DNA from: a virus
Length of the DNA: 21,227 nt
Virus record (IMG/VR): IMGVR_UViG_3300030107_003843
Location: 1 to 21,227 of that record
Reading direction: 5' to 3' (one strand)
Position numbers and translations under genes: made by a program. Shown here piece after piece: positions 5,090-21,227 of this stretch (its first letter is position 1; each line of letters begins with the position of its first letter). The notes beneath the pieces are model-generated. The model ran no database searches, had not been told where the DNA came from, and saw only the letters and a list, made by a program, of their open reading frames with translations.

Positions 5090-5308
5090 ATGGATGAATT
5101 AATGAACACAATGCTTGATAAAGGAGCGTCTGCTTCTGATGTGAGTGATAAAATAAAAGAAATTTTATTTGCTAAAAGTGCAGAAAAAATAGATGCAACA
5201 AAACCAGATGTTGCTGCAAAATTATTTGACGATCAACCAGAAGTAGAAACAGAAACAGAAATAGAAGTAGAAACAGATGATGGTGCTGAAACAGAATCCG
5301 AGGAATAA
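5090..5308 (+). CDS. Prohead core protein, gp67-like
   Basis: This 72-residue protein sits between the portal and protease genes, exactly where T4 has gp67 (the prohead core protein PIP). Its first 45 residues are amphipathic helix (DELMNTMLDKGASASDVSDK, then KIKEILFAKSAEKI). Residues 48-72 are an extremely acidic tail of Glu/Thr/Asp, encoded by a GAAACA-type simple repeat at about 5239-5295. T4 gp67 has the same design of a short helical part and an acidic tail, and is degraded by gp21 during maturation. Sequence identity is too low to name it from motifs alone, so the call rests on place, size and composition. Its stop overlaps the next start by one base (TAATG), suggesting translational coupling. 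Confidence 0.6.
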   Translation: MDELMNTMLDKGASASDVSDKIKEILFAKSAEKIDATKPDVAAKLFDDQPEVETETEIEVETDDGAETESEE

Positions 5309-6336
5309 TGAAAGTATTATCTGCCGAGACAAATTTGGGATCTGCTACAAATGTAGGTAAGGCTCCAGTAGTAAGAATTTATAACAGTGATTCTTCTGCT
5401 GTAACTCTTACTAGAAAGGATGCTGCTGGAATAGTTATTGGAACTTATTCTGTTCCTGCAGATAAAGTCATATATTGTCAAAAATCATTTACAGATACTT
5501 TAGAAGGTGGTGCAAATTTAAAGGCTGCTGCAATTGGATACAGTGAAATGTTGGATATTGTAACACTTGCTAGTGGTGCTGGTGGTGTTATAACTGATAA
5601 TTTAATGTTTCATTTGGATGCTGGTAATGCAGAATCTTATGGAGATCAAACAACTCTTTGGAAGGACTTAACAACTAATAATAACGACTTTCAGAAACAA
5701 GGTGCTCCTACTCACGATCCAGATACTAATGGGGGAATATTTACCTTCGATGGTACGGATGATGCATTCTTCTGTCCACACAATAGCACTCAACTATTAA
5801 CGGATAAAAACTTTACTTTTGAAATATGGGTAAAAGCCATATCACTCAATAGTGAACCTTGGACTAAAATATTGGCCAAAGATAGAGCAGTAAGTTCTTG
5901 GACTGGAACTGGAGTCCAATCGTATGCTGTGATGGGTTGGAATAATACTTATAAACCATATTCAACTCTTATTCAAAGAGAGAATGGAACTTCAGGTGCT
6001 AGTGAAATGGTTGCAGATGATGCTAACTTTCCTACAGGTGTATGGAAACATATGGTTGTGACTGCTGATTTTAATACCAGTATCAGTGATGGTTTTAAAT
6101 TGTATATGAATAATGTATTAGAAGACACTGGAGACATAAGTGATTTTAGTGGAGCTTCTGGTGAAATGAATCAGACTGGAGATTTTACTATTGGGAATCG
6201 TAAACAAGCATCTAGTTGGAGTTCTACGTATGCAAATATTAGTGCTTCGATAGTTAGAGTTTATGTTGATAAAGCATTAACAGCATCCGAAGTTGCCCAA
6301 CATTGGAACCATGAGAAAGCAAGACACGGATTATGA
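5308..6336 (+). CDS. LamG/concanavalin-like domain protein, candidate virion surface protein
   Basis: This 342-residue protein has two parts. Residues 1-80 form a small beta-rich domain that closely resembles the whole product of the next gene (for example RIYNSDSSAVTL here against RLVNTDSSAHLV there, then GTYSVPAD against GSFTLPAN). Residues about 96-342 look like a LamG/concanavalin A-type sandwich, with DNLMFHLDAGN, IFTFDGTDDAFF, FTFEIWVKA, TGVWKHMVVTADF, FKLYMNNV and a final IVRVYVDKALTASEVAQH. Such domains usually bind carbohydrate or act as adhesive decoration. There is no signal peptide or membrane segment. Lying inside the late head operon, it is probably a structural protein with the short domain as virion anchor and the LamG part exposed; that division of labour is inference. 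It overlaps the core gene by one base, and its stop lies in a GATAAATA octamer. Confidence 0.75.
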   Translation: MKVLSAETNLGSATNVGKAPVVRIYNSDSSAVTLTRKDAAGIVIGTYSVPADKVIYCQKSFTDTLEGGANLKAAAIGYSEMLDIVTLASGAGGVITDNLMFHLDAGNAESYGDQTTLWKDLTTNNNDFQKQGAPTHDPDTNGGIFTFDGTDDAFFCPHNSTQLLTDKNFTFEIWVKAISLNSEPWTKILAKDRAVSSWTGTGVQSYAVMGWNNTYKPYSTLIQRENGTSGASEMVADDANFPTGVWKHMVVTADFNTSISDGFKLYMNNVLEDTGDISDFSGASGEMNQTGDFTIGNRKQASSWSSTYANISASIVRVYVDKALTASEVAQHWNHEKARHGL

Positions 6337-6643: not shown

Positions 6644-7294
6644 ATGAAATTAATTACAGAAGAAGTATCACAAGTTAAATTTATCACTGAAGGTAAAGGT
6701 GCTAATAAAAAATTGTATATTGAAGGAGTTTTCCTTCAAGGTGATATTAAAAACCGTAATGGTAGAATGTATCCAGTAAATACTCTTGCTCGTGAAGTTG
6801 GAAGATATAATGAAGCATTTGTCCAAAAAGGTCGTGCTTTAGGTGAGTTGGGACATCCTGATGGCCCTACTGTAAATCTTGATCGTGTTTCTCATAAAAT
6901 TACTTCTCTTGTTCAAGAGGGAAATAATTTTAAAGGAAAGGCACAAATTCTTGGAACACCTATGGGTAAGATTGCATCATCACTTTTAGATGAAGGTGTA
7001 ACTCTTGGTGTTTCTTCTCGTGGTGTTGGTTCATTAAAAATGAACAACGAAGGAGTTAATTGTGTTGGTGAAGACTTCATGTTAGCAACTGCTGCTGATA
7101 TCGTTGCTGATCCTTCTGCTCCTGATGCTTTTGTATCTGGAATCATGGAAGGAAAGGAATGGGTTTGGGACGGAGGCACACTTCGTGAACAGATCGCAAC
7201 CCAAACAAAGAAGCGTATTAATACGCTAGTGAGTCAAAGAAAACTTGAGGAGCACAAACTCCAATTATTCAATGATTTTTTGACAAATCTTTAA
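6644..7294 (+). CDS. gp21: Prohead core maturation protease gp21
   Basis: This 216-residue protein is the serine protease that digests the scaffold and trims capsid proteins during T4-type head maturation. It carries the expected landmarks: GDIKNRNGRMYP near residues 33-44, the candidate catalytic histidine in GELGHPDGP (His71), and the candidate nucleophile in GVSSRGVGS (Ser124 or Ser125). A later DIVADPSAPDAF block is conserved in the family. Two ITE sites at residues 4-6 and 14-16 fit the (L/I)xE cleavage rule of gp21-type proteases and could be autocleavage sites. The size is close to T4 gp21 (212). It starts 4 nt after the previous stop and is followed by a late promoter for the scaffold gene. 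Confidence 0.93.
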   Translation: MKLITEEVSQVKFITEGKGANKKLYIEGVFLQGDIKNRNGRMYPVNTLAREVGRYNEAFVQKGRALGELGHPDGPTVNLDRVSHKITSLVQEGNNFKGKAQILGTPMGKIASSLLDEGVTLGVSSRGVGSLKMNNEGVNCVGEDFMLATAADIVADPSAPDAFVSGIMEGKEWVWDGGTLREQIATQTKKRINTLVSQRKLEEHKLQLFNDFLTNL

Positions 7295-16789: not shown

Positions 16790-16835
16790 ACAGTTGATAA
16801 ACCGTCTACTTACCTCCCCCAAAGGGAGGTTTTTT
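16786..16835 (+). terminator. Hairpin plus intrinsic terminator after the 64-aa gene
   Basis: Two hairpins lie in tandem. The first pairs GTAGAC (16786-16791) with GTCTAC (16804-16809), with an inner GTT/AAC and a GATA loop, and includes the stop codon. The second is the terminator proper: ACCTCCC (16812-16818) with GGGAGGT (16824-16830), loop CCAAA, then a T run to 16835. Confidence 0.85.
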
Positions 16836-16867: not shown

Positions 16868-19069
16868 ATGACATTACAGCACGAAATTAAATCCCAACTT
16901 GCAAAACTCCTTGCTACTGAAGACCTTATAGTAGAGCATAAGCAAGTAGAAACAGCACAGTTTAATGTTGGTACTCGTGTCTTAACCTTACCTTTATGGG
17001 ATAAGGCAAGTAATGTTGTATATGATATGTTGGTTGGACATGAGGTGGGACATGCATTATTCACACCAGACAGAAACTGGTATACTGAGGTTAAAATACC
17101 ACCACAGTTTGTAAATATCGTAGAAGATGTTAGAATAGAAAAATTGATGAAACGCAAGTATGCAGGACTTGCAAAATCTTTCTACCACGGTTATGAGGAA
17201 CTGAATGATGATGATTTCTTTAATGTTGTTGATGAAGATCTTGATTCTCTTATTCTTGCTGATAGGATTAATCTACATTTCAAGATTGGTAATTTCGTTG
17301 ACATACCTTTTTCAGATGCTGAGAAGGAGATTGTCAAGGTAGTAGATTCATGTCAGACATTTGATGAGGTTCTTAATGCATCTAAAGTTCTTTATGATTA
17401 TTGTAAACAGGCAAATCAGGAAGCAACAGAGCAAGTATCTCCAGATTCAGAAGGTGGGGAAGAGGATCCAGATTTCCAACCACAACCACAAAGTGGTCAA
17501 GACTCCGAAGATTCTGATGAGCAGAATGATGATGATTCATTTGAAGTGAAAAATCAACCAGTAAGTAAAGGTGAACCAGAAGAATCAGATAGTGATCAAT
17601 TACCACAATCTCAGCCAGGTAAGAGGAATAGTGATTTAGATCTTAAGACTGTAGAAGCATTAGAAGATGCACTTAAGGATCTTACAAATACTAATCAGGT
17701 TCATGAAACACAGTATTTTGAATTACCTAAACTAAGATTAGATAGAGTTATTGTTCCCAATGCTGAGATACATGAGAAGTGCGAATTAGCATGGTCACCA
17801 GCAAGTGATGAAGAATATCGTAAGAGAATGGAACTTTATGGTGATTCTAGACTTATTCCAGTAAATAGGTTCGAATATGCAGATCAAGAGTATATAAAAT
17901 TTAAGAGAAATGCACAGAAAGAAGTTAATTACTTAGTTAAAGAGTTTGAGTGTAAGAAATCTGCTAGTGCTTATGCTCGTGCTGCTACTAGTAAAACTGG
18001 AGTTTTAGATACAGCAAAACTTCATACTTATCAATTTAATGAAGATCTTTTTAAGAAAATAACAGTATTGCCTGAAGGTAAGAATCATGGTTTAATATTC
18101 ATTCTTGATTGGTCTGGATCAATGGGCCCAGTATTACTTGATACTTTGAAGCAATTGTATAACCTATTGTGGTTTTGTAAGAAAGTGAATATCCCATTTG
18201 ATGTTTATGCTTTTACTAATTGCTATCCTCTTCAGACTTATCTTTCTGATGGAACACCAGCAATAGCAAGAATGCCAGCATATGAAGCAAAGGAAGGTGT
18301 TGCTCATGTTGAAGATCATTTCTCTTTAATGAACTTTTTTACTAGTAAAGTAAGAGGTAAAGAACTTGAGCAGCAAATGAAAAATATATTTAGAATTGCA
18401 ATGCTTCATGAGGATCGTTATAATTGTTGTTATGATCTTCCATTAGGATTGAATCTTTCTGGAACTCCATTGAATGAGACAATGATTGCTCTTCATGAAA
18501 TACTTCCTAAGTTTAGAGAAGAGAATAAGGTTGAGAAAGTCCAGTGTGTTATTCTTACAGATGGTGAAGGATCTCCATTGAGATATCATAAGCAGGTTCA
18601 ACGTAATTGGGAGGATGAACCATACTTACGTACTGCTGCTATCAATTATGGTACTTTTCTAAGATGTCGTAAGACTGGAAGAACATATGCATTTAGGGGT
18701 GATTGGTATGCACAGACTGATGTATATCTTCAGAATCTTAGGGATAAGTTTTCTGATGTTAATTTTATTGGTATTCGTGTTGTTTCTCAGAGAGAAGGTG
18801 GTTCATTCATACGAAGATATGCAGGATCTTATGGAGATAAGTATGAGAAACTGATTAGGGATTGGAAGAAGAATAAGTCTTGTTCTATCAAGAATTCTGG
18901 TTATCATACTTACTTTGGATTATCATCATCTGCTTTGGATAATGAAATAGATTTTGAAGTTAATGAAGATGCTACTAAAGCACAAATTAGAACTGCCTTT
19001 AAGAAATCTCTTAATGGTAAGAAGATGAATAAAAAGATACTTGGCGAATTTGTAGAATTAGTGGTATAA
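16868..19069 (+). CDS. CobT-like protein: HEVGH metallopeptidase-like domain plus VWA domain
   Basis: This 733-residue protein has three parts. The N-terminal part carries GHEVGHALFTPDRNW with His58-Glu59-x-x-His62, followed by NIVEDVRIEKLM with Glu86 and Glu91. This is the layout of a zinc metallopeptidase of the gluzincin type. Residues about 190-260 are an acidic Gln/Ser/Asp/Pro-rich linker. The C-terminal part is a VWA domain with MIDAS residues in ILDWSGSMGP (Asp414, Ser416, Ser418), Thr533 and Asp565 in ILTDGEGS. The protein resembles CobT of the aerobic cobaltochelatase in its linker and VWA part, and cyanophage copies are often named so. VWA proteins of this type act with MoxR/CobS AAA+ ATPases, and one is encoded 1.2 kb downstream. 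The chelatase subunit CobN is not seen, so a protein-remodelling or proteolytic role is more likely; that is inference. Confidence 0.85.
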   Translation: MTLQHEIKSQLAKLLATEDLIVEHKQVETAQFNVGTRVLTLPLWDKASNVVYDMLVGHEVGHALFTPDRNWYTEVKIPPQFVNIVEDVRIEKLMKRKYAGLAKSFYHGYEELNDDDFFNVVDEDLDSLILADRINLHFKIGNFVDIPFSDAEKEIVKVVDSCQTFDEVLNASKVLYDYCKQANQEATEQVSPDSEGGEEDPDFQPQPQSGQDSEDSDEQNDDDSFEVKNQPVSKGEPEESDSDQLPQSQPGKRNSDLDLKTVEALEDALKDLTNTNQVHETQYFELPKLRLDRVIVPNAEIHEKCELAWSPASDEEYRKRMELYGDSRLIPVNRFEYADQEYIKFKRNAQKEVNYLVKEFECKKSASAYARAATSKTGVLDTAKLHTYQFNEDLFKKITVLPEGKNHGLIFILDWSGSMGPVLLDTLKQLYNLLWFCKKVNIPFDVYAFTNCYPLQTYLSDGTPAIARMPAYEAKEGVAHVEDHFSLMNFFTSKVRGKELEQQMKNIFRIAMLHEDRYNCCYDLPLGLNLSGTPLNETMIALHEILPKFREENKVEKVQCVILTDGEGSPLRYHKQVQRNWEDEPYLRTAAINYGTFLRCRKTGRTYAFRGDWYAQTDVYLQNLRDKFSDVNFIGIRVVSQREGGSFIRRYAGSYGDKYEKLIRDWKKNKSCSIKNSGYHTYFGLSSSALDNEIDFEVNEDATKAQIRTAFKKSLNGKKMNKKILGEFVELVV

Positions 19070-19089
19070 TATATAAAAATGTTTTAATT

Positions 19090-19302
19090 ATGGATTTTGA
19101 TTCTGAAAATGTTGTAATGGTCGATTTATTGGAAAGAATTGCTGATAGTCTTGAGAGAATATCCTCAAGTCTTGAGGATGGTCCTCTTCATATAAATATT
19201 GATCATGGACACATTGAACAAATTGAACATGTTGATCATGCTCATATAGATGATATCGCTGAAATACATGGCGATGTAACTACACACCCTAAAAATTTTT
19301 AA
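19090..19302 (+). CDS. Small histidine-rich protein
   Basis: This 70-residue protein is not from a family I know. Residues 8-29 form an amphipathic helix (VVMVDLLERIADSLERISSS). Residues 34-66 hold eight histidines (34, 39, 41, 47, 50, 52, 60, 66) spaced mostly with Ile and acidic residues, as in HINIDHGHIEQIEHVDHAHI. The alternating pattern suggests short strands with His on one face and possible metal binding. There is no signal peptide. It lies 20 nt after the CobT-like gene and 1 nt before the DUF2997-like gene, so it belongs to the same transcription unit. A metal-carrying or metal-sensing helper to the zinc-peptidase-like partner is conceivable but unproven. Confidence 0.75.
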   Translation: MDFDSENVVMVDLLERIADSLERISSSLEDGPLHINIDHGHIEQIEHVDHAHIDDIAEIHGDVTTHPKNF

Positions 19303-19303
19303 A

Positions 19304-19528
19304 ATGAAAAAAGAAACTATCAAATATACCATTCGTCAAGATGGTAATGTTACTGAGGAAGTTTTTAATGTTCCTGGTGATGTATGTCTTAAAATGACTG
19401 AGGATATAGAAATCAAACTTGGTGATTTAGAAAATAGAGTTTATACTTCTGATTATTATAATCAGGAACTTGATTTAACTAAAGACATAACAATTAATAC
19501 TACTGATACTGGAAATGTCACATTTTAG
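19304..19528 (+). CDS. DUF2997-like small protein
   Basis: This 74-residue protein shows the pattern of DUF2997, small proteins found beside DUF1257/Ycf35 genes in cyanobacteria. It opens with a strand pair TIKYTIRQDGNVTEEVFNVP, followed by a helix containing a conserved-looking GDVCLKMTEDIEIKLGD with one cysteine (Cys28), then YTSDYYNQE. The first 60 residues match the family shape, and the Thr/Asn-rich last 15 look like an extension. The function of the family is unknown. The end overlaps the DUF1257 gene by 14 nt, which supports coupled expression, and the pairing with DUF1257 strengthens the call. Confidence 0.72.
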   Translation: MKKETIKYTIRQDGNVTEEVFNVPGDVCLKMTEDIEIKLGDLENRVYTSDYYNQELDLTKDITINTTDTGNVTF

Positions 19529-19925
19529 CACAATTAAAACCAAGATCAAAGATCGTGATGCTTTAATTGAAGCACTAGAACGTCTTGGTGAAAGAGTAAA
19601 TGTTCCTTTTAAAGGGACAAAGGTAGTTGAATTGGTAATTTTAAATCCATCTCATGCAGAAAAACATCCTACTATGGAAGTTGATATTGCTATTGGAGTT
19701 GATGTTGGGTTTAAATGGAATCAGTATACTGAAACTTATGAATTGATTGCTGATCGTCAGACATGGGAAAAGAATGTTCCTATAGAAAGATTCATGGAAA
19801 AGGTTACACAGCAGTATGCTAGAATGATGCTTCATCGTGAAATTGAGGAAAAGGGTTATGAAATAGAAGAAGAGTGGGAAATGGAAGATAACTCAATTGA
19901 ATTAACAGTATCACGTTGGAATTGA
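19515..19925 (+). CDS. DUF1257 / Ycf35-like protein
   Basis: This 136-residue protein belongs to DUF1257, which includes plastid Ycf35 and its cyanobacterial homologues. Characteristic parts are the start MSHFSTIKTKIKDRDALIEA, the VDIAIGVDVGFKWN strand-turn, YELIADRQTWEKNVPIERF, and TQQYARMMLHREIEEKGYE before a final SIELTVSRWN. The length is typical. The role is not known; in cyanobacteria and algae it is a conserved small soluble protein near AAA+ ATPase or ferredoxin genes, as I recall. Here it is 14 nt overlapped with the DUF2997-like gene and lies in the CobT-to-CobS interval. Transfer from a cyanobacterial host is the simplest origin. Confidence 0.85.
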   Translation: MSHFSTIKTKIKDRDALIEALERLGERVNVPFKGTKVVELVILNPSHAEKHPTMEVDIAIGVDVGFKWNQYTETYELIADRQTWEKNVPIERFMEKVTQQYARMMLHREIEEKGYEIEEEWEMEDNSIELTVSRWN

Positions 19926-19962
19926 ATTATTACTAAATATTTGCAGTAATTAAATTAGACTT

Positions 19963-20205
19963 ATGAGCCATTTTGGAGATATATTTAAAGGTGCACCAAA
20001 AAAAGAACCAACTCCAGTAGCACCTCCTGTTGTAACACCACCAACAACTGTAGAACCAGAAACAGTTACTGGAGAAGTTGATTTGAAATCCTTAAGTAAA
20101 AAGGATTTAGAAGATTATGGTAGAACAGTTGGTATTGAATTGGATAGAAGGCATAGTAGATCTAAGTTAGTTAAGGAACTACAAGAACATATAGACAATT
20201 TATAA
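19963..20205 (+). CDS. Pro-rich protein with SAP/HeH-like C-terminal domain
   Basis: This 80-residue protein has a short start MSHFGDIFKG, a Pro/Val/Thr-rich linker at residues about 12-38, and a C-terminal 40-residue helical part (DLKSLSKKDLEDYGRTVGIE, then RRHSRSKLVKELQEHI). The C-terminal pattern of two helices joined by a turn with Gly and basic residues resembles SAP, HeH or Rho N-terminal-type DNA/RNA-binding folds. The linker suggests tethering of that module to a partner. It is the last gene before a strong terminator, so it may belong to the CobT-DUF2997-DUF1257 unit. Function is unknown. Confidence 0.72.
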   Translation: MSHFGDIFKGAPKKEPTPVAPPVVTPPTTVEPETVTGEVDLKSLSKKDLEDYGRTVGIELDRRHSRSKLVKELQEHIDNL

Positions 20206-20214
20206 AGTGTCCAC

Positions 20215-20238
20215 AAGGGGTCATCTGACCCCTTTTTT
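20215..20238 (+). terminator. Intrinsic terminator before cobS
   Basis: AAGGGGTCA and TGACCCCTT form a perfect stem, with the realistic loop ATCT, followed by a T run to 20238. It separates the CobT unit from the CobS-like gene. Confidence 0.9.
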
Positions 20239-20243
20239 ATTGT

Positions 20244-20262
20244 TATAATAGGTTCATAAATA
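20244..20262 (+). promoter_or_regulatory. TATAAT and CATAAATA elements upstream of cobS
   Basis: TATAAT (20244-20249) follows the terminator, and CATAAATA (20255-20262), one mismatch from the late octamer, lies 16 nt before the start codon. No clear -35 box exists. Either a sigma70-type or a late start is possible. The surrounding TATAATAGG matches the copy after the 16812-16835 terminator. Confidence 0.5.
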
Positions 20263-20278
20263 AGACACCTACATTATT

Positions 20279-21227
20279 ATGGCTTTTGAACTTAAAATGA
20301 CTGAACAGCAAGCAATCGATGGATTGAGAAGTACTTTTGGAAATGAATTTACCACTGCAGATGTTCGTGGATTTTGTGCTGCTAATGATATCGGTTACCA
20401 AACAGTAACTAAAAAGATCCAGAAGTATAAAGTATCTAAAGGTAGATGGAATCTTGAAGTTACTACTAAAGCAGTAGAAAACATTGAAAAATCATTCAGT
20501 GCTCCTGCAGTGGAATCAGTTGTAGAGAGAGACTTAGTTCCTGCTACTGATGATACTTTTGTTAAGTTTGGACCATTTGTAGATCTTAAAAAGATTATTC
20601 AATCAAAACAGTTCTATCCTACTTTTATTACTGGTCTATCTGGAAATGGTAAGACCTTTAGTGTAGAGCAAGCATGTGCTCAATTGAAGAGAGAACTTAT
20701 TCGTGTAAACATTACAATCGAGACAGATGAAGATGATCTTATTGGCGGTTTCCGTCTTGTTAATGGTGCCACAGTATGGCACAATGGCCCAGTCGTGGAA
20801 GCTCTCGAACGAGGAGCTATCTTGCTCCTTGACGAAATCGACCTTGCCTCTAACAAAATTCTCTGCCTTCAGAGCATACTTGAGGGAACTGGAGTTTTCC
20901 TTAAGAAAATTGGAAGGGTCGTTAAACCAGCAAGAGGATTCAACGTCATCGCAACCGCAAATACTAAGGGTAAGGGTTCAGACGATGGAAGATTCATTGG
21001 AACTAATGTGCTCAACGAAGCCTTCCTTGAACGATTCCCAGTTACCTTCGAGCAAGACTATCCCTCACCAGCAATAGAATCTAAAATCTTAGGTGGAGTT
21101 GCTGCCAAGTTAGGTGTTACTGACACTGATTTCTGTAAGAGATTAGTTGATTGGGGTGACATCATTCGTAAAACATTCTATGATGGTGGTATCGAAGAGA
21201 TCATCAGCACTCGTAGATTGGTTCACA
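20279..21227 (+). CDS. cobS: CobS-like MoxR-type AAA+ ATPase (5' part, runs off the window)
   Basis: An open frame from ATG 20279 to the end of the window gives 316 residues without a stop. The N-terminal 100 residues form a helical leader, including FCAANDIGYQTVTKKIQKYK. AAA+ motifs follow: Walker A GLSGNGKT (119-126), Walker B LLLDEID (Asp185, Glu186), sensor 1 ATANTKG (225-231), and an arginine-finger candidate in LERF (Arg252). This is the CobS/MoxR class common in cyanophages. CobS works with CobT in cobaltochelatase, while other MoxR ATPases work with VWA proteins to remodel substrates; the VWA protein upstream is the obvious partner. The stretch from about 20750 to 21060 has a clearly higher GC and more C-ending codons than the 5' part. 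There is no clear ribosome binding site before the ATG. Confidence 0.93.
   Translation, partial: MAFELKMTEQQAIDGLRSTFGNEFTTADVRGFCAANDIGYQTVTKKIQKYKVSKGRWNLEVTTKAVENIEKSFSAPAVESVVERDLVPATDDTFVKFGPFVDLKKIIQSKQFYPTFITGLSGNGKTFSVEQACAQLKRELIRVNITIETDEDDLIGGFRLVNGATVWHNGPVVEALERGAILLLDEIDLASNKILCLQSILEGTGVFLKKIGRVVKPARGFNVIATANTKGKGSDDGRFIGTNVLNEAFLERFPVTFEQDYPSPAIESKILGGVAAKLGVTDTDFCKRLVDWGDIIRKTFYDGGIEEIISTRRLVH

Follow-up and report, generated by a model that had tools for sequence, protein, structure and literature searches.

We identified, on a 21 kb fragment from IMG/VR that belongs to a T4-like virus of cyanophage type (IMGVR_UViG_3300030107_003843; the whole analysed stretch of 21,227 nucleotides is called the window below), a gene pair that probably encodes a two-gene MoxR-type AAA+/VWA/metallopeptidase machine and not a cobaltochelatase. 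The pair consists of a VWA protein with an N-terminal gluzincin-like domain and a MoxR/CobS-type AAA+ ATPase. The cyanophage literature places cobS, as a vitamin B12 gene, among the core auxiliary metabolic genes. The computed support for a different role comprises conserved motifs and their invariance, zincin-like and midasin/NorD-like folds, recurrent pairing of the two genes, the lack of HExxH in genuine CobT, and the absence of CobN from the phage and cellular genomes searched; from these we infer zinc binding, proteolysis and a physical complex of the pair. The VWA gene and its putative peptidase part are located as follows.

16868..19069, + strand: VWA protein with N-terminal gluzincin-like domain, 733 amino acids (open reading frame (ORF); PHROG_459, 'peptidase', 'CobT', E 5e-264)
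16868..17437, + strand: N-terminal zincin-like domain, residues 1-190 (AlphaFold2 mean predicted local distance difference test (pLDDT) 92.5, predicted template modelling score 0.87; PDB neighbours almost all zincins)
17039..17053, + strand: HExxH motif, H58 E59 V60 G61 H62, in helix 49-65 (invariant in the alignment; AlphaFold2 helix)
17114..17140, + strand: N83-x-x-E86-D87-x-R89-x-E91 motif in helix 79-97, E86 being the predicted third zinc ligand (alignment; AlphaFold2)

An initial annotation made from the DNA alone had reported an intact HExxH motif (His58-Glu59, His62) in the VWA protein, and comparison with relatives bore this out. HExxH, N83, E86 and D87 are kept in all 159 phage sequences whose N-terminus is complete (69 representatives at 80% identity). 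Of the plasmid and cellular relatives, 13/13 keep HExxH and D87, and 12/13 keep E86. Only ten of 190 positions (A30, P42, H58, E59, H62, N83, E86, D87, R89 and G100) are invariant in a 68-sequence alignment that takes in seven cellular sequences and extends down to 17% identity, and the whole putative zinc site falls within these ten. Given this invariance across phage, cellular and plasmid sequences, the motif is not a chance occurrence, and the putative zinc site is, as judged from the alignment, under selection. Two downstream acidic residues, Glu86 and Glu91, had also been named; both are present, but only the former suits a ligand. Glu91 is replaced by Asp in 24/159 phage sequences and was rejected, so that Glu86, 24 residues after His62, is the likelier third ligand. 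As E59 is invariant and is needed for catalysis, not for metal binding, its conservation speaks against a pseudoenzyme and favours catalysis.

AlphaFold2 predicted residues 1-190 as three strands with the HExxH and E86 helices, and two features of a gluzincin, HExxH in the active-site helix and a downstream Glu on a second helix, are found in alignment and model. The comparison with gluzincin peptidases that had been proposed as a check was run with VIA-align and returned nearly exclusively zincins among the 50 PDB entries listed. The best match among these was jannalysin (4jix, Z 7.5), and the list further contained ArdC (6sna, 7.2), Wss1 (5.4), IrrE (5.2), selecase, abylysin, BlaR1, ZMPSTE24, and M1 and M13 peptidases. 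An independent sequence profile aligned HExxH with the HELIH of jannalysin (E 0.15); the VWA protein sequence alone had no match among PDB sequences. The minigluzincins (jannalysin, abylysin, selecase), ArdC, Wss1 and IrrE resemble the N-terminal domain in its predicted fold and in HExxH, but their structures contain no AAA+/VWA fusion.

The other features of the VWA protein and those of the AAA+ protein are located as follows.

17438..17629, + strand: acidic low-complexity linker, residues 191-254 (pLDDT <50 in the full-length model)
17897..19066, + strand: VWA domain region, residues 344-733 (VIA-align: MDN1-MIDAS 8ql1 Z 16.2, NorD 9qh6 Z 14.9)
18107..18121, + strand: DxSxS of the metal ion-dependent adhesion site (MIDAS), D414, S416, S418 (invariant alignment columns)
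18464-18466 and 18560-18562, + strand: remaining MIDAS residues T533 and D565 (invariant alignment columns)
20279..21227, + strand: MoxR/CobS-type AAA+ ATPase, 316+ amino acids, cut by the window end (AAA_5 E 9e-19; PHROG_249 E 7e-121)
20633..20656, + strand: Walker A GLSGNGKT, residues 119-126
20831..20836, + strand: Walker B D185-E186
20960..20962, + strand: sensor 1 N228

Asp414, Ser416 and Ser418 were correctly recognized in the initial annotation, and with T533 and D565 the MIDAS is complete. Its description of the MoxR-class ATPase motifs as intact was likewise accurate, Walker A, Walker B and sensor 1 each being at least 97% conserved in 56 relatives. The VWA protein has relatives in 463 phage records, mostly from Synechococcus and Prochlorococcus phages and mostly labelled 'peptidase'; for the AAA+ protein there are 459 relatives with good coverage, usually labelled CobS or porphyrin biosynthesis. 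By one strict pattern, the AAA+ gene is located downstream of the VWA gene in 56/64 loci. The eight misses include two with an annotated adjacent CobS-type gene and one (L089) in which an AAA+ match directly follows the VWA ORF. The large majority of T4-like phages that infect marine cyanobacteria carry the pair. AAA+ relatives in ANB28, Staphylococcus phage phiSA12 and Acinetobacter phage Herod, whose adjoining genes lack HExxH, were left out of the count, and a DLP6 query found no relatives among viral contigs.

By VIA-align, the VWA domain is closest to the MIDAS domain of midasin (Mdn1/Rea1), followed by NorD (Z 14-15), and the AAA+ protein matches the AAA modules of midasin (E about 1e-46 in total), CobS (E 4e-17) and NorQ. 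Unlike the phage pair, midasin is a single giant eukaryotic ribosome-assembly protein, and we know of no peptidase domain in it. NorQ and NorD (PDB 9qh6, 9qhd) combine a MoxR ring with a VWA protein, an arrangement also proposed for the phage pair, and enable iron insertion into nitric oxide reductase; in the part of PMC9976466 consulted, no zinc-protease domain like the putative one of the phage VWA protein is described for NorD. Since the nearest motor systems, NorQD and CobST, insert metals, the pair could alternatively be a NorQD-like cofactor insertase, whose HExxH domain would hold metal, or hand it to a metalloprotein of phage or host, and would cut no peptide. The NorD-like VWA domain fits this, as do the 2-oxoglutarate-Fe(II) oxygenase genes that are common neighbours of the pair in phages, but we regard it as improbable: the general base Glu59 is invariant, and the plasmid and E. 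coli phage versions have no oxygenase neighbours in the stretches seen.

The HExxH domain had been singled out as the part that the cobalamin explanation does not use, and genuine CobT indeed has the same domain without this motif. The N-terminal domain of 31 alphaproteobacterial CobT sequences (TIGR01651) is homologous to the plasmid and cellular HExxH set (hhalign E 5e-8), which in turn is homologous to the phage domain (E 6.5e-22), and contains an RGxADAxALRLRHHD-type sequence in place of HExxH. An HEPAH string in 1/31 CobT ORFs (L196) was attributed to a false start, because this ORF extends some 240 residues beyond most others at its upstream end. MAFFT sets RHHD..H of CobT opposite HExxH with a gap, whereas hhalign sets HENGH opposite TADAY; because of this disagreement we rely for CobT on the motif-level statement alone. 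In the tree, CobT forms one clade, sister to the HExxH-bearing protein of Roseobacter phage CRP-810 (support 96/93), and all other branches carry HExxH. The simplest history is therefore a loss on the branch leading to CobT, provided that the tree is not rooted within CobT. These sequence comparisons make CobT look like a degenerate member of a metallopeptidase-VWA family. The VWA protein itself matches neither TIGR01651 (E<=0.1) nor Pfam CobT, and its distant relatives do match PF06213 (Pfam CobT). CobT and CobS of CobNST (PF06213, PF11775, TIGR01651; PDB 9uka) thus share homologous AAA+, VWA and N-terminal domains with the phage pair, but CobT lacks HExxH, has CobN as partner and forms a separate clade. 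The fold lists contained no CobT structures from the PDB, which is uninformative either way.

No CobN was found in the window. As this is a 21 kb fragment, we extended the search to complete relatives: CobN is absent from 6/6 complete phage genomes, and the two matches among 50,697 phage records are in records without the pair. These two (OQ572414.1, MT837301.1) are unannotated and possibly bacterial sequence. All seven cellular genomes that carry the HExxH pair, which include draft or metagenome assemblies, lack CobN as well, and it is present in the genome with true CobT from the same comparison. Pfam CobT (E 9e-27) and CobT_C (E 8e-82) both score above the cut-off in a protein of E. coli K-12 phage PhiR41_1 that retains HEVAH..NALEDV; CobN was not found in the host species of this phage, E. 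coli. Among alphaproteobacteria, 15/33 genomes with full CobT (TIGR01651 over the cut-off), several of them drafts, had no CobN match; Caulobacter vibrioides has CobT and no CobN match. Such orphan CobST may have another role.

The suggestion in the initial annotation that the pair has the parts of a remodelling or proteolytic machine agrees with the invariant HExxH and Glu, the zincin-like N-terminal model, the midasin/NorD-like VWA domain and the AAA+ partner. In the machine that we propose, the MoxR-type AAA+ protein (from 20279) would assemble into an ATP-driven ring, onto which the VWA domain would dock as in NorQD and midasin. The MIDAS metal would grip an acidic residue on the target protein, ATP hydrolysis would move or unfold the target, and the tethered N-terminal gluzincin would cut it, with H58, H62 and E86 holding zinc and E59 acting as general base. 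Genuine CobT would descend from the same family and would have lost the zinc site on its recruitment to cobalt insertion with CobN.

The sole hint to the substrate is a neighbourhood of replication, recombination and repair genes. The window itself carries gp18, gp19, gp20, gp21, gp22 and gp23 as well as UvsY, UvsW, gp55-, gp47- and gp46-type genes, and in five Kyanoviridae-type genomes the pair is placed between gp46 and gp45/gp44. DNA polymerase III alpha adjoins the pair or is close by in E. coli, Klebsiella and Rhizobium phages, and a pyrimidine-dimer glycosylase gene is beside or near the VWA gene in P-SSM2 and CRP-810. On plasmids, including IncC and IncHI2, an AAA-DUF3150-VWA(HExxH) module is found beside ssb/bet/exo or toprim genes, with the order AAA - (hypothetical) - ssb - bet - lambda exonuclease - DUF3150 - VWA in IncC and AAA - DUF3150 - VWA - toprim in IncHI2 plasmids and a Vibrio plasmid. 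Relatives of the IncC DUF3150 protein occur in 1102 plasmid records. The module resembles the phage pair in HExxH, EDxRIE (DD in IncHI2), MIDAS and a nearby AAA+ gene, but has DUF3150 as a third gene, of which none was seen between the phage genes. From the phage neighbours (uvsW, gp47, gp46/gp45, gp44, DNA polymerase III alpha, pyrimidine-dimer glycosylase) and the plasmid neighbours (ssb, bet, lambda exonuclease, toprim), we speculate that the target is a protein at work on DNA that is being replicated or recombined. A tentative extension, possible but in our judgement doubtful, is that phages and conjugative plasmids share a machine that clears or cleaves proteins on such DNA, functioning like p97-SPRTN/Wss1 or as a counter-defence protease, and that CobST arose from this machine when the protease site was lost. 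In P-SSM2, the 'DNA binding protein' (locus L082, 10211-10738) after the VWA gene matches pyrimidine dimer DNA glycosylase (PF03013, E 1e-14), and CRP-810 has endonuclease V soon downstream of the VWA gene.

Signals around the two genes may bear on when they are expressed.

16812..16830, + strand: terminator-like hairpin directly upstream of the VWA gene
19963..20205, + strand: small protein of 80 amino acids (SAP-like by eye; no Pfam match above the cut-off)
20215..20234, + strand: terminator-like hairpin separating the VWA unit from the AAA+ gene
20255..20262, + strand: CATAAATA, T4/cyanophage late-promoter-like box, 23 nucleotides upstream of the AAA+ start

The gene for the 80-amino-acid protein follows the VWA gene by about 31 nucleotides in 26 related loci. 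The late-promoter motif described in PMC2984593 is NATAAATA; a late-type box such as CATAAATA precedes the AAA+ gene in 25/116 relatives against 5.3 expected, a minority signal only. This box would suit a chaperone-protease that processes structural proteins during virion assembly, an explanation partly compatible with the proposed machine that differs in the substrate. It is further favoured by the same architecture in the group 2.2 jumbo phage system of Iyer et al. 2021 and by the MoxR-VWA pair that the consulted text of PMC7824862 cites as required for archaeal virus tail assembly. We consider it rather unlikely, as the VWA gene has no late box (4/152 relatives against 3.8 expected), a prohead protease, gp21, is already encoded in the window (6644-7294), and close relatives are found on conjugative plasmids, which produce no virions. 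The text consulted in virion proteome papers neither names nor excludes the VWA protein.

Several observations weigh against the proposed machine. For the N-terminal domain, Foldseek E values are weak (best 0.13) and VIA-align Z scores stay below 8; these single scores are modest, yet the list of zincins matched by the model is coherent. The VWA and AAA+ genes appear to be in separate transcription units here and may be expressed at different times, and the DNA-context argument partly reflects ordinary T4 gene order. Finally, CobN/ChlH-type genes were found in 20/20 cyanobacterial genomes. The lack of CobN in the window, although correctly noted in the initial annotation, is therefore a weak argument alone, and in cyanophages there is room for CobST chelatase subunits that hijack host CobN (or ChlH) to raise cobalamin. 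CobN hijacking has been proposed for archaeal viruses and cyanophages (PMC8651126), and the homology to CobS, and via intermediates to CobT, is real. This explanation is nevertheless quite improbable in our view, because the zinc site is invariant in the phage family and gone from CobT of CobNST, because phages and plasmids of E. coli, as well as seven cellular genomes, have the HExxH pair and no CobN, and because the VWA protein matches neither of the two CobT models.

The metallopeptidase idea is not wholly new, as databases already label the gene 'peptidase' and Iyer et al. 2021 (PMC7824862) proposed a MoxR-vWA-metallopeptidase system for group 2.2 jumbo phages, gammaproteobacterial and other. 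We liken the phage pair to that system by its architecture; cyanophages are group 2.1 in that work, and the portion of it consulted does not mention the pair for this group. Liu et al. 2021 held the cyanophage 'peptidase' to be a misannotated CobT. The two opposed readings are reconciled if CobT carries a degenerate version of the zincin-like domain: judged by sequence, both are right on homology, and the chelatase inference does not follow. No paper linking the phage pair to the plasmid module was found in the literature searched. Should the two genes encode a remodelling protease, there would be no basis left for inferring that phages boost B12 synthesis, and a testable function could be given to an infection gene that is almost universal in abundant marine phages. 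The comparison also connects the phage pair with a three-gene module that has been little studied and is carried by about a thousand plasmids, IncC and IncHI2 among them.

Two further loci of the window were noted. At 19090-19925, the VWA gene is separated from the 80-amino-acid gene by an insertion of an ORF of 70 amino acids, DUF2997 and DUF1257 (ycf35-like). DUF2997 and DUF1257 were seen at that position in no other locus examined, and these Ycf35-type neighbours were therefore rejected as a component of the machine; DUF1257 is present in Synechococcus genomes too. A gene for a concanavalin/laminin-G-like protein (5308-6336) is located between portal gp20 and protease gp21.

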